From NCBI GenBank assembly GCA_919901565.1, contig CAKKPE010000058.1, positions 1-59,932 on the forward strand: a DNA stretch of 59,932 nt, read 5' to 3'. Below the pieces are notes generated by a model. That model searched no databases, was not told where the DNA came from, and was given only the letters and a program-made list of their open reading frames with translations. The DNA is from a bacterium (GTDB lineage Bacteria > CG2-30-53-67). Shown here piece after piece: positions 55,612 to 59,532 of this stretch (position 1 is the first letter of the stretch; each line of letters opens with the position of its first letter). The translations under genes and the position numbers were made by a program.

Positions 55612-56769
55612 ATGGGGATTCAAAACGGTATTTTAAACCGTGTACTTGAAAAATTATCCAGGGAATCGGATATCCGGATCCGTTCCCATCTCTGTTCTAG
55701 GATACGGTACCCCCGTTCAAATTGCCGGGCATGCCAGGAGGTATGCCCTTCCGGTTCAGTGAATATTCACTCGGGATCTGTGACCCTCGGGCAGAATTGC
55801 TCCGGGTGCGAAATATGTATACCGGCCTGTCCCAACGGCGTATTCACGTTAAACGGCCGCAAAGAGAAAGAACGCCGTGAACAACTCAAAAAAGGACTGG
55901 AATCAGACGCCATTGCGAGGTTTACATGTATCATGAATCAGAGGAAAACGGGTGCGGGGATTGTGGTGCTTCCTTGCCTGGCCGGATTGTCCGAAGCTTA
56001 TCTGATCGCCCCCTTTGCCTGGGGCGCAAAAAAGGTACAGATAAGACGGATGGGATGCGGGGCCTGCCCTTTTTCGGCAGGGATGAAGCGGTATGAACAA
56101 CTTCTGACGAGGACGGCGGAACTGCTTGCATGTTTTGACATTCCTGCAGGGAGGATCGAAGAAGTTGAGAATTTTGATTTACTCAAAGAGCCTTCGACTG
56201 GAACAGATGGCCTCTCCAGTGAGGGTTTAGGGCGCAGGGAATTATTCAATCTTTTCCGTAAGCGGACCGTGGAGACCACCATGGACCTGATGCCCGAGTC
56301 CAAGGAGGACCGCAGCGAAATTCGGTGGTCTCACCGGGAGAATCCCGCTCGATCCTTTCTTCTGCAATTGCTCCCTTTGCTGGGGGAGAACCGGGAAAAG
56401 TCGCTCTCTCTCAATATTTTTCCAGTCATCGACCTTAATATTTCCATGGATTGTATCGGCTGCAATGTGTGCGAGACCCTCTGTCCTACGGGGGCCATCC
56501 GCAGGGAGGTGGATGAAGATGAGAAAAGAACCCGCCTGTTTTTTAGCACTTCAAAATGCACCGGATGCAGAATTTGCGGGGAGGCTTGCCTTCCAAAGGC
56601 CATATCGTTTACTGAGACCGTATTTTTTAGAGAACTTCTCGATGGGGGGGAGAAGGAACTGATTGGTGTGGCTGCAAAACACTGTCGTATCTGCGGGAAA
56701 ACATTTCATGGCATCCCGGGTGAGAAATGTCCGGAATGTTTTGGTTCACACCAAAGGGGACAGCGTTGA
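55612..56769 (+). CDS. Multi-cluster Fe-S protein of a Mo/W or formate-related cluster
   Basis: A 385-residue protein with four ferredoxin-like Cys sets: CRACQEVCP (about residue 38, possibly with Cys28), CSGCEICIPACP (about 63), CIGCNVCETLCP (about 281) and CTGCRICGEACLP (about 317). A CRICGK and CPECF pair at the C-terminus may bind zinc. Between the sets lies a segment VVLPCLAGLSEAYLIAPFAWGAKKVQIRRMGCGACP that resembles the FlpD/MvhD electron-transfer module. It is followed by molybdopterin-binding and FmdE-like genes, so it may carry electrons to or assist a Mo/W enzyme. Not named. Confidence 0.8.
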   Translation: MGIQNGILNRVLEKLSRESDIRIRSHLCSRIRYPRSNCRACQEVCPSGSVNIHSGSVTLGQNCSGCEICIPACPNGVFTLNGRKEKERREQLKKGLESDAIARFTCIMNQRKTGAGIVVLPCLAGLSEAYLIAPFAWGAKKVQIRRMGCGACPFSAGMKRYEQLLTRTAELLACFDIPAGRIEEVENFDLLKEPSTGTDGLSSEGLGRRELFNLFRKRTVETTMDLMPESKEDRSEIRWSHRENPARSFLLQLLPLLGENREKSLSLNIFPVIDLNISMDCIGCNVCETLCPTGAIRREVDEDEKRTRLFFSTSKCTGCRICGEACLPKAISFTETVFFRELLDGGEKELIGVAAKHCRICGKTFHGIPGEKCPECFGSHQRGQR

Positions 56770-56825
56770 GGCGTAAGGGGATTCAGGGGTTCCACTTTTC
56801 TCTTGAATAGAGAGATTGATCTGTG

Positions 56826-56888
56826 ATAACGGTTCAGGAAGATATTCGGAAGATTTTATTGTAAACCGTTATACACTGGATGCATAAC
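56826..56888 (+). promoter_or_regulatory. Clustered inverted half-sites upstream of the molybdopterin gene
   Basis: ATAACGGTT (56826-56834) and AACCGTTAT (56864-56872) form a perfect 9-bp inverted pair. GTTATACA (56868-56875) and TGCATAAC (56881-56888) form a second, near-perfect pair. The motifs resemble ModE-type TATAACG half-sites; this is an inference from motif and context. Confidence 0.35.
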
Positions 56889-56925
56889 ACTTGTCTGTAC
56901 CCGCTAAATAAAGAGGGAGGGCGTA

Positions 56926-57951
56926 ATGTTGAAGACGCTGCCGGTGCAGGAATCCGTGGGAACCGTGCTGGCCCATGACATTACAGAAATTATCCCGGGC
57001 CAGTTCAAGGGAAGGGCCTTCAGGAAAGGGCATATCATCACCGAATCGGATATAGAACACCTTAGAGATCTCGGCAAGGAACATCTTTATGTTCTGGAGA
57101 TCGGCGTTGATGAAATGCATGAAAATGATGCGGCCATGCAACTGGCTTCGGTGCTGGCAGGGAAAGGGGTAACGGTTTCCAGAGAACCCAGAGAAGGGAA
57201 GCTCGAACTTGCCGCATCGTACGACGGTCTGCTGAAGGTTAATGTTCAGGCCCTGTACCGTTTTAATCTTATAGGCGAGGTCATGTGCGCAACACGGCAT
57301 ACCAATACGTATGTCAGGCAGGGAGAGATCCTGGCCGGAACCCGCACCATACCGTTGGTCATTCAAAAAAAAACTATCGACAAGGCTGTGGCGATCTGCA
57401 AGGAAGCCGGCGCAATTGTGCATGTGCTCCCGCTTTTAAAAACCAACGTTGGGGTTGTGATAACCGGGAACGAGGTTTACTATGGGAGAATCAAGGACAA
57501 GTTCAGGCCGGTGATTACCAGGAAGGTAACTGAGATCGGGTCCAGGATATCAGACGTGCGTTATGCCCAGGATCAACGGGAGATTATCGCCGGACATATA
57601 CTGGATCTGATAGCGGCGGGATCGGATCTCATTGTAACGACCGGCGGGATGTCGGTGGATCCGGACGATGTGACCCGTCTTGCGGTGGCCGATGCCGGAG
57701 CAAGGGAGATCACTTACGGCTCGGCGGTCCTTCCAGGGGCCATGCTCATGGTTGCGTATATTGGTGAGGTGCCTGTGATCGGTGTGCCGGCATGCGGGAT
57801 GTTCCACGATATTACCCTTTTTGACCTGATCTTCCCGCGTATTCTGGCCGGAGAACGGATCGGACGGGAGGCCCTTGCGGCCCTTGGACACGGCGGACTC
57901 TGTCTGAACTGCAAGATCTGTCGTTTTCCTGTCTGCCCGTTCGGGAAGTAG
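56926..57951 (+). CDS. Molybdopterin-binding (MoeA/MogA-like) protein with Cys-rich C-terminus
   Basis: A 341-residue protein. An N-terminal region similar to the MoeA start (LPVQESVGTVLAHDITEIIPGQFKGRAFRKGH) is followed by the molybdopterin-binding fold with GVVITGNEVYYGRIKD and VTTGGMSVDPDDV. The end has CLNCKICRFPVCPFGK, an unusual Cys cluster for MoeA-like proteins. It probably takes part in Mo or W cofactor handling. The start is ATG 56926 after GGGAGGGCGTA. The next gene encodes FmdE-like protein. Confidence 0.85.
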   Translation: MLKTLPVQESVGTVLAHDITEIIPGQFKGRAFRKGHIITESDIEHLRDLGKEHLYVLEIGVDEMHENDAAMQLASVLAGKGVTVSREPREGKLELAASYDGLLKVNVQALYRFNLIGEVMCATRHTNTYVRQGEILAGTRTIPLVIQKKTIDKAVAICKEAGAIVHVLPLLKTNVGVVITGNEVYYGRIKDKFRPVITRKVTEIGSRISDVRYAQDQREIIAGHILDLIAAGSDLIVTTGGMSVDPDDVTRLAVADAGAREITYGSAVLPGAMLMVAYIGEVPVIGVPACGMFHDITLFDLIFPRILAGERIGREALAALGHGGLCLNCKICRFPVCPFGK

Positions 57952-57991
57952 GACCCGGGACAGGAAATGAGCGGCAGGAAAAGGGATAAGA

Positions 57992-58579
57992 ATGAAAACC
58001 TTGGAAGAATGCTTGAAAGAATCGGTGGCGTTCCATGGAGAGGAGTGCCCGGGGCAGGTGATTGGAACAAGGATGGCCATCACCGGCTGCCGTGAAATCG
58101 GTATAAAAGATCCCAAGTCCAAAGCGGAACGCAAGAAGATCATCGTCTATGTGGAAATGGATCGATGCGCCTCGGATGCAATCATGGCGGTTACCGGATG
58201 CCGCGTAGGTAAACGGACCTTGAAAATCATGGATTACGGTATCATGGCCGCTACCTTTGTCAACCTGGAGACCGGAAGGGCAGTCAGAATCCGGGCCAGG
58301 GAATCCTCAAGGGAACTGGCCTTGAAATATGCACCCAATATCACGGAAAAATATGATCAGCAGAGGGAATCCTATAAGGTCATGCCAGAGGAAGAACTTT
58401 TCGAGACTCGGGAGGTGCGGGTTGCCGTTCCCATACAGGATATGCCCGGCCGTCCTGTCAGGCGTGTGCGCTGTGATCAGTGCGGTGACTGGGTTCAGGA
58501 CATGCGGGATGTGCAGATGGATGGAAAGAACCTTTGCCGGTCCTGCGCCTTTGGAGGGTACTTTGAGAGAATCAAATAA
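57992..58579 (+). CDS. FmdE-family protein with C-terminal zinc-ribbon
   Basis: FmdE proteins occur with formylmethanofuran dehydrogenase and other Mo/W enzymes; their biochemical role is not settled. The 195-residue protein has the FmdE core SVAFHGEECPGQVIGTRMAI, VEMDRCASDAIMAVTGCRVGKRTLKIMDYGIMAATFVN. A C-terminal zinc ribbon follows, with CDQCGDWV and CRSCAF. No formylmethanofuran dehydrogenase gene is in the window. It follows the molybdopterin-binding gene after 40 bases. Confidence 0.88.
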   Translation: MKTLEECLKESVAFHGEECPGQVIGTRMAITGCREIGIKDPKSKAERKKIIVYVEMDRCASDAIMAVTGCRVGKRTLKIMDYGIMAATFVNLETGRAVRIRARESSRELALKYAPNITEKYDQQRESYKVMPEEELFETREVRVAVPIQDMPGRPVRRVRCDQCGDWVQDMRDVQMDGKNLCRSCAFGGYFERIK

Positions 58580-58674
58580 AATGGGTTGAACTTAATGCAG
58601 GAATTTTTCTTCTTGACTCAAATGAAGGTATTGGATATGTTATGAAAACTTTTTACTTATATGGAGGGTAATAT

Positions 58675-59532
58675 ATGGGCAAAAGAAAGAAGTGTTTAGT
58701 TCTGTTATCCATGATCTTTCTTCTTTTTACCTGTTGGCCGCCTCTAATCGTTCACGCAGAGGTGGAATCGAGTACCATTTCCACGTTGAACCTGGATCAG
58801 AAGCCGATTGATGTTGCCTCCACCCCGGACGGGAAATGGGTCTATATCCTGACAGCGGGTCAGGTTCAGATCTATTCACTGGCCAGCAAGTCGATTGAAG
58901 GGAGGATCTCCGTCGACAATGGGACTGACAAGATTGCCGTTTCACCCATGGGAGACCAGCTCTTCCTGACCAATGAGAGGACAAAAACACTCTCTATTGT
59001 CAAGGTCGGCTTTATCCAGAATATTGATGTCAAAGGATCCCCCTTTAAAGGTCCGGCGAATGCGCCGGTGGTGATCGCCGTTTTTGAAGATTTCCAGTGA
59101 CCCTACTGTGCACGGCTTTCGCCGTTACTCCAGCAGGTGCTGGAGCAATACCCCAAAGAAGTCAAGCTGGTAACTAAGCACTATCCTATCCCGTCGCATG
59201 CGTTTTCCCGGAAGGCAACGGTCGCTGTGTTGGCCGCAGCAGAGCAGGGGAAATATTGGGAATACCAGGAGAAGATTTTTGCAAATATGAGTACGCTCTC
59301 GGACCAGAAGTTCCTTGACATGGCACGGGAACTCGGTCTGAACATGGACGCCTTTCAGAAGAGCCTTAAGGATCCGAAGCATCAAAGCGCCCTCGATAAA
59401 GATGTATCTGATGCCAATCTGGCAGGTGTCAGAGGGACCCCCACCATTTTCATCAACGGACGGCTTCTGACCAACCGGTCTCTGGATGGTTTCAAGGAGA
59501 TTATTAACGAAGAGCTGAAAAAGAAGAAGTAA
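58675..59532 (+). CDS. Selenocysteine-containing DsbA-like thiol oxidoreductase (in-frame UGA at 59098-59100)
   Basis: The first part (residues 1-141) has a signal peptide (KKCLVLLSMIFLLFTCW) and a short beta-propeller-like segment (VASTPDGKWVYILTAG, AVSPMGDQLFLTNE). It ends at VIAVFEDFQ, followed by UGA and PYC in the same frame. The rest continues normally through the DsbA/thioredoxin_4 fold (LVTKHYPIP, KYWEYQEKIFANM, VRGTPTIFING with the cis-Pro) to 59532. The UGA stands exactly where the first Cys of CPYC belongs, so residue 142 is probably selenocysteine, paired with Cys145. The protein is probably exported and acts on thiols. Total length is 285 residues. A SECIS-like hairpin follows the UGA. 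If UGA were a true stop, neither half would make sense alone. Confidence 0.85.
59098..59145 (+). other. Recoded UGA and bacterial SECIS-like hairpin
   Basis: After the UGA at 59098-59100, CTCCAGC (59128-59134) pairs perfectly with GCTGGAG (59139-59145) around the loop AGGT. The loop begins 34 bases after the UGA and has G at its second position. Both fit the published bacterial SECIS pattern. A smaller CGGC/GCCG stem lies at 59113-59124. Confidence 0.7.

Follow-up and report, generated by a model that had tools for sequence, protein, structure and literature searches.

An exported propeller-blade/DsbA fusion protein whose in-frame UGA almost certainly encodes selenocysteine and is followed by two conserved RNA hairpins

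The window analysed in this study (the whole 59,932-nt stretch of contig CAKKPE010000058.1) carries near its end a DsbA-like gene with a TGA at the place of the first active-site cysteine. This raised the question of whether UGA stops translation there or is decoded as selenocysteine (Sec), and, if it is decoded, which RNA signal directs the insertion and what kind of enzyme results. The gene and all of its features lie on the forward (+) strand. It runs from ATG 58675 to TAA 59530-59532 (58675..59532), encodes 285 aa, and contains a single internal TGA, codon 142 (59098..59100), which opens the motif UPYC. A Shine-Dalgarno-like GGAGGG was recognised in the sequence at 58663..58668, with the ATG 6 nt downstream. 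Residues 1-28 (58675..58758) were assigned as a signal peptide by sequence pattern (basic, hydrophobic, small-x-small), with cleavage likely after VHA; the peptide was kept in relatives, and a periplasmic location of the protein is very probable. On re-reading, everything that the earlier note had given for the gene matched, namely its coordinates, frame, length of 285 aa, lone internal TGA, DFQ-UGA-PYC context, VRGTPTIFING cis-Pro loop and signal peptide. Mechanical ORF calling split the gene into 58675-59100 and 59137-59532; standard annotation cuts this propeller-DsbA selenoprotein gene in two.

Those two ORFs would also be expected if the UGA really ended translation or came from a sequencing error, leaving a broken or split DsbA gene that perhaps re-initiates at GTG 59137. 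However, the same codon was TGA in 18 relatives from five phyla (17 with UPYC, one with UHYT), and it was TGC in three others. The latter (L031, L032 and L033) were full-length, carried CPYC and had the same two-part design, and are thus the Cys homologues of equal domain order that the earlier note had suggested looking for. With the window counted, the set held 18 UPYC copies (L107 partial) and the UHYT paralogue L094. The coding sequence was conserved on both sides of the TGA, including the downstream part, whose lack of conservation the earlier note had named as a refutation. In addition, the genome encodes selABCD, the RNA after the UGA forms covarying hairpins, and re-initiation would lose the entire active site. 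The presence of TGA in 18 relatives, together with CPYC in relatives of the same design, indicated that the codon is neither a sequencing error nor the mark of a pseudogene, and both were rejected along with a split gene; we consider a stop or an error here extremely improbable. A global reassignment of UGA was ruled out, as TGA ends 17 of the 41 main ORFs of the window.

Full-length relatives built of the same two parts came from the window's own small phylum, from three further small phyla and from one Myxococcota MAG (L022, Deltaproteobacteria MAG CTSoil_058, which the tree tool places in Myxococcota). Within the window's own phylum, the gene was present in five of the eight genomes examined, its own genome counted. 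The sharing of the same UGA, RNA signal and two-part design across five phyla indicated a real family. In a maximum-likelihood tree the Sec/Cys label switched three times, once within a genus and once within a family, and L032 (Cys) and L085 (Sec) formed a fully supported sister pair within one genus. Judged from the sequences, such repeated switches are the pattern of a selenoprotein family, one that sequencing error could not produce. The within-genus Sec/Cys pair (G195/G114), with its SECIS partly broken, represents a natural experiment on Sec loss. The paralogue L094 (G203:C301:1272-2105) is a second copy that kept Sec, lost the resolving Cys (UHYT) and has the SECIS loop GGGU; a shift of function is possible there.

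The genome (97.4% complete, 160 contigs) encodes selA (626 bits), selB (397 bits) and selD (382 bits), all above curated cut-offs, as well as a tRNA-Sec with the TCA anticodon (UCA), so that selA, selB, selC and selD, proposed in the earlier note as a check, were all found. A second tRNA-Sec candidate (C38) was identified as tRNA-Leu(UAA) by ARAGORN. SelD of the same genome has its own internal in-frame TGA and is itself a selenoprotein (L019, G000:C47:2535-3473). The RNA 3' of that UGA may also fold as tandem hairpins; its first loop starts with G, and therefore the SelD SECIS may be classical. FdhA of the same genome likewise has an in-frame TGA, with the GGU of its SECIS at nt 22-24. Two formate dehydrogenase-type molybdopterin oxidoreductases, L072 (G000:C31) and L077 (G000:C129), carry in-frame TGA codons, in the motifs RYUHSSTV and RIUHSSTV. 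For the window gene, Sec insertion at UGA 59098-59100 can be regarded as close to certain.

Every distinct Sec form had two hairpins 3' of its UGA, one at nt 15-28 or close to it and one at nt 31-48, with numbering starting at the U of UGA. In the window, hairpin 1 (59112..59125) has the loop UUUC and is the proposed spacer, and hairpin 2 (59128..59145) has a 7-bp stem and is the proposed SECIS core. Standard pairs occupied 93.2% of pair cells across 16 distinct sequences, versus 38-56% in slid controls. The covariation score was reached by none of 500 shuffles; as kinship can beat such shuffles, this alone is no proof. Synonymous codon shuffles, which preserve the protein, are a stronger test. 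The natural sequences formed 72 of the 80 pairs of hairpin 1, where 2000 shuffles averaged 40.6 and never exceeded 51; for hairpin 2 they formed 107 of 112, where the shuffles averaged 70.1 and never exceeded 85. The apical loop AGGU of hairpin 2 (59135..59138), the proposed SelB contact, was invariant in 16 distinct Sec sequences, and the codons that hold it (+10 to +13) showed 100% synonymous identity, compared with 0.47 upstream and 0.42 downstream. The loop of L094 reads GGGU, and therefore no Sec form departs from GGU itself. Among the Cys forms, L031 and L033 retained neither the AGGU loop nor hairpin 2; in L032, a Cys form of recent origin, hairpin 2 was partly broken and the otherwise invariant G36-C43 pair was gone. 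Hairpin 1 was imperfect in L090 (2 of 5 pairs), where the RNA refolds into a shifted hairpin.

The 2026 catalogue describes a bSECIS model with a loop of 3-9 nt carrying G within its first two positions, a stem of 4-16 bp, a distance of 16-37 nt from the UGA and an MFE of at most -7.5 (PMC13188914). The earlier note had held that the hairpin after the UGA fits bacterial SECIS geometry. There are in fact two hairpins, and this held for the second (AGGU, 7 bp, 34 nt from the UGA; region MFE -19.6), while the first, with its loop UUUC, fails the G rule. The arrangement also departs from a classical single-hairpin SECIS, as in FdhA of the same genome, in having GGU at nt 39-41 rather than nt 22-24; the SelB loop of propeller-DsbA therefore lies ca. 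17 nt farther from the UGA, beyond hairpin 1. The loop of hairpin 1 (nt 20-23) sits where FdhA has its GGU, and hairpin 1 covaries, as would suit SelB binding at the classical distance, with hairpin 2 merely coding or auxiliary. However, hairpin 1 loops were variable (UUUC, UUUU, UCGA, UUGA, UCAU, UCGU, UUGC and others), most of them lack the G required by the bSECIS model, and it is hairpin 2 that was synonymously frozen and carried GGU in every Sec form. Binding of SelB to hairpin 1 is accordingly improbable, and binding to hairpin 2 is probable. We infer that hairpin 1 acts as a spacer: with its 14 nt folded away, 13 nt would be left between the UGA and hairpin 2. Among the papers searched, none on a bacterial SECIS of two hairpins turned up. 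The double hairpin offers a way to test whether folding of the RNA that separates the UGA from the SelB loop can reset the distance.

The redox domain occupies residues 121-279 (59035..59511) and has a DsbA fold. Read across the TGA, it matched Pfam Thioredoxin_4 (PF13462; 1.7e-26, 93.8 bits, cut-off 23.2) and DSBA (PF01323; 4.4e-22, 79.2 bits, cut-off 25.6). The part after the TGA alone scored ca. 5e-18, in line with the earlier claim of a complete DsbA-like fold continuing in frame. AlphaFold models of ten relatives had a mean pLDDT of 89.5, and Foldseek matched the C-terminal domain to 3gyk, BdbD, ScsC and DsbA proteins. The cis-Pro256 of the fold (VRGTPT; 59440..59442) was an invariant column. 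Cys145 (59107..59109), the resolving Cys of UPYC, is the sole Cys in the predicted mature protein, and Sec142 and Cys145 were the only redox pair of the predicted mature protein in nearly all members. Elsewhere, open frames of 728-1426 aa with several tandem DsbA-like domains were seen (G134:C128 and C40, G182:C13, G035:C72).

In DsbA, the first active-site residue is the attacker, and Sec142 would therefore be the attacking selenol and Cys145 the resolving residue. Selenenylsulfides are usually more reducing, or harder to reduce, than disulfides, which would favour exchange, isomerisation or reduction over one-way oxidation. The protein may well be an isomerase or reductase, although we hold this role tentatively. 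The same selenoprotein could instead oxidise exported proteins as DsbA does, with a partner such as DsbB or VKOR restoring its oxidised state; BdbD and DsbA proteins were among the closest folds, and both the CPYC-type motif and the DFQ-UPYC context resemble DsbA/BdbD. The difficulty of reducing selenenylsulfides disfavours a one-way oxidant, however, the propeller fragment hints at the oligomeric state seen in isomerases, and a DsbC-like protein co-occurs in one phylum, leaving the oxidant as a possible but not a probable role. Sec is also common in peroxidatic enzymes, and the paralogue L094 retains Sec without a resolving Cys (UHYT), as a selenol peroxidase or a reductase of small oxidants might. 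The fold, however, is that of DsbA with a cis-Pro loop, not of a peroxiredoxin or GPx, and all other members retain UxxC, so that activity on small oxidants in place of protein disulfides is unlikely.

Between the signal peptide and the redox domain, residues ca. 30-118 (58762..59028) form two YVTN/WD40-like beta-propeller blades of four strands each. The earlier note had described this segment as propeller-like, and phmmer, profile and fold matches bore the description out. The segment matched the archaeal S-layer YVTN propeller 1l0q by phmmer (1.4e-14), and its profile matched WD40 proteins and the oligomeric propeller fragments 6r5x, 6r5y and 6r5z. Its AlphaFold pLDDT was 89, and Foldseek matched it to YVTN/WD40 propellers (5c2v_B, 1l0q_A) and to the two-blade design 3wwb. 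Designed two-blade chains assemble into eight-bladed tetramers (PMC6805158). A single pair of blades is too few for a closed ring, and oligomerisation, as in the designed chains, is therefore the likeliest role; by analogy with these fragments, we regard an oligomerisation module as somewhat the better guess, the alternative being that the blades pair with a partner propeller. Among the papers searched, none dealt with a DsbA with a YVTN propeller, and the structure and paper searches of this analysis gave no DsbA-type precedent for blades as an oligomerisation device.

The gene neighbourhood was informative mainly in the phylum of genome G114. There, the gene was directly followed by an exported DsbC-like gene at every locus with a visible downstream gene, except the paralogue L094. 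The DsbC-like proteins (L095:5254-6063, L069:8806-9612, L096:5483-6295, L099:3732-4535 and others) have a conserved N-terminal CxxxxCxxCH motif and were found in 12 of 12 genomes searched of that phylum, which points to disulfide repair or cytochrome maturation. Such a partner was looked for in the window's own phylum and was not found. Directly upstream of the window gene, 55612-58579 encodes a 4Fe-4S protein, a MoeA-like molybdopterin-binding protein and an FmdE-like protein, a cluster that suggests molybdenum or tungsten metabolism. As conserved partners, FmdE-like, MoeA-like and RlmN proteins were rejected as mere synteny, being lost outside the phylum and even in some sister genomes. A 6S RNA (Rfam RF00013, 123 bits) lies at 2137-2318 of the window. 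No phage DNA matched, and a phage origin was ruled out; no anti-phage defence family matched, and tblastn against plasmids returned distant DsbA-domain matches only.

The explanation that we put forward, and consider likely as a whole, is that the gene encodes a Sec-pathway-exported thiol/selenol:disulfide oxidoreductase with two blades, in which SelB and Sec-tRNA would decode UGA 59098-59100 as selenocysteine through hairpin 2 and its AGGU loop. By absorbing 14 nt, hairpin 1 would bring hairpin 2 effectively to within ca. 13 nt of the UGA. Once exported, the protein would consist of the two blades and the DsbA domain, with a Sec142-Cys145 selenenylsulfide beside cis-Pro256 as its sole redox centre. 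The blades of several subunits would most likely close one propeller, yielding an oligomer with several substrate-facing Sec sites in the manner of DsbC or ScsC. The attacking Sec would favour fast exchange, and disulfide reduction or isomerisation is thought likelier than one-way oxidation. The fullest version, a composite SECIS with a spacer hairpin and a SelB loop ca. 17 nt further out, serving a self-assembling Sec-ring disulfide isomerase of the envelope, is offered as a speculative proposal. The findings add a selenoprotein family that spans several phyla and whose genes are cut off at the active site by mechanical ORF calling; its blades point to a device for oligomerisation.

DsbC, DsbG and Proteus mirabilis ScsC are likewise exported, have a thioredoxin fold and oligomerise through an N-terminal segment. 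The redox domain of P. mirabilis ScsC (PDB 4xvw, 6mhh) is 27% identical to that of the window protein over ca. 166 columns. Unlike the window protein, however, these enzymes use Cys and have N-terminal segments of a kind other than propeller blades. In an oligomeric isomerase of the DsbC/ScsC type, the two-blade fold would serve as the N-terminal oligomerisation domain, a role for which the tetramer precedent comes from designed fragments. The two-blade homo-oligomeric propellers matched by sequence (6r5x) or fold (3wwb) differ in being designed constructs without an enzyme domain (PMC6805158).

With DSBA and Thioredoxin_4 scores above their cut-offs, UPYC and the cis-Pro of TP256, propeller-DsbA belongs by domain and motif to the DsbA-like UxxC selenoproteins, which, according to the available parts of the sources, have been known since 2005-2006 (PMC1088965, PMC1794560) and are in the 2026 catalogue (PMC13188914). 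As described there, these proteins (form 1, PF01323) likewise have a DsbA fold in which Sec replaces the first active-site Cys, and a SECIS after the UGA; to that description the window protein adds two blades and two hairpins after the UGA. The best curated (seleno)protein model was NF041057 of NCBIfam (Rcas_1661 family thioredoxin-like (seleno)lipoprotein), which PMC13188914 classes as DsbG-like with UxxC. It aligned over the redox domain and its members are likewise exported, but the score of 71.1 bits lay below the cut-off of 190, and the window protein has no lipobox by eye and a different N-terminal part. Among the NCBIfam selenoprotein models found, propeller-DsbA scored below every cut-off, and none claims the family. 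A sister genome encodes another exported DsbA-like Sec-x-x-Cys protein (L040, G004:C39:8479-8985, UPHC), which differs in lacking the propeller part and in its single SECIS of the classical type, whose GGU is at nt 22-24. A further separate exported DsbA-like selenoprotein without the propeller part lies at G002:C148:2146-2649. Against these known systems, three things are new: the propeller fragment, a double-hairpin SECIS whose SelB loop is displaced, and the spread of the family over several phyla.
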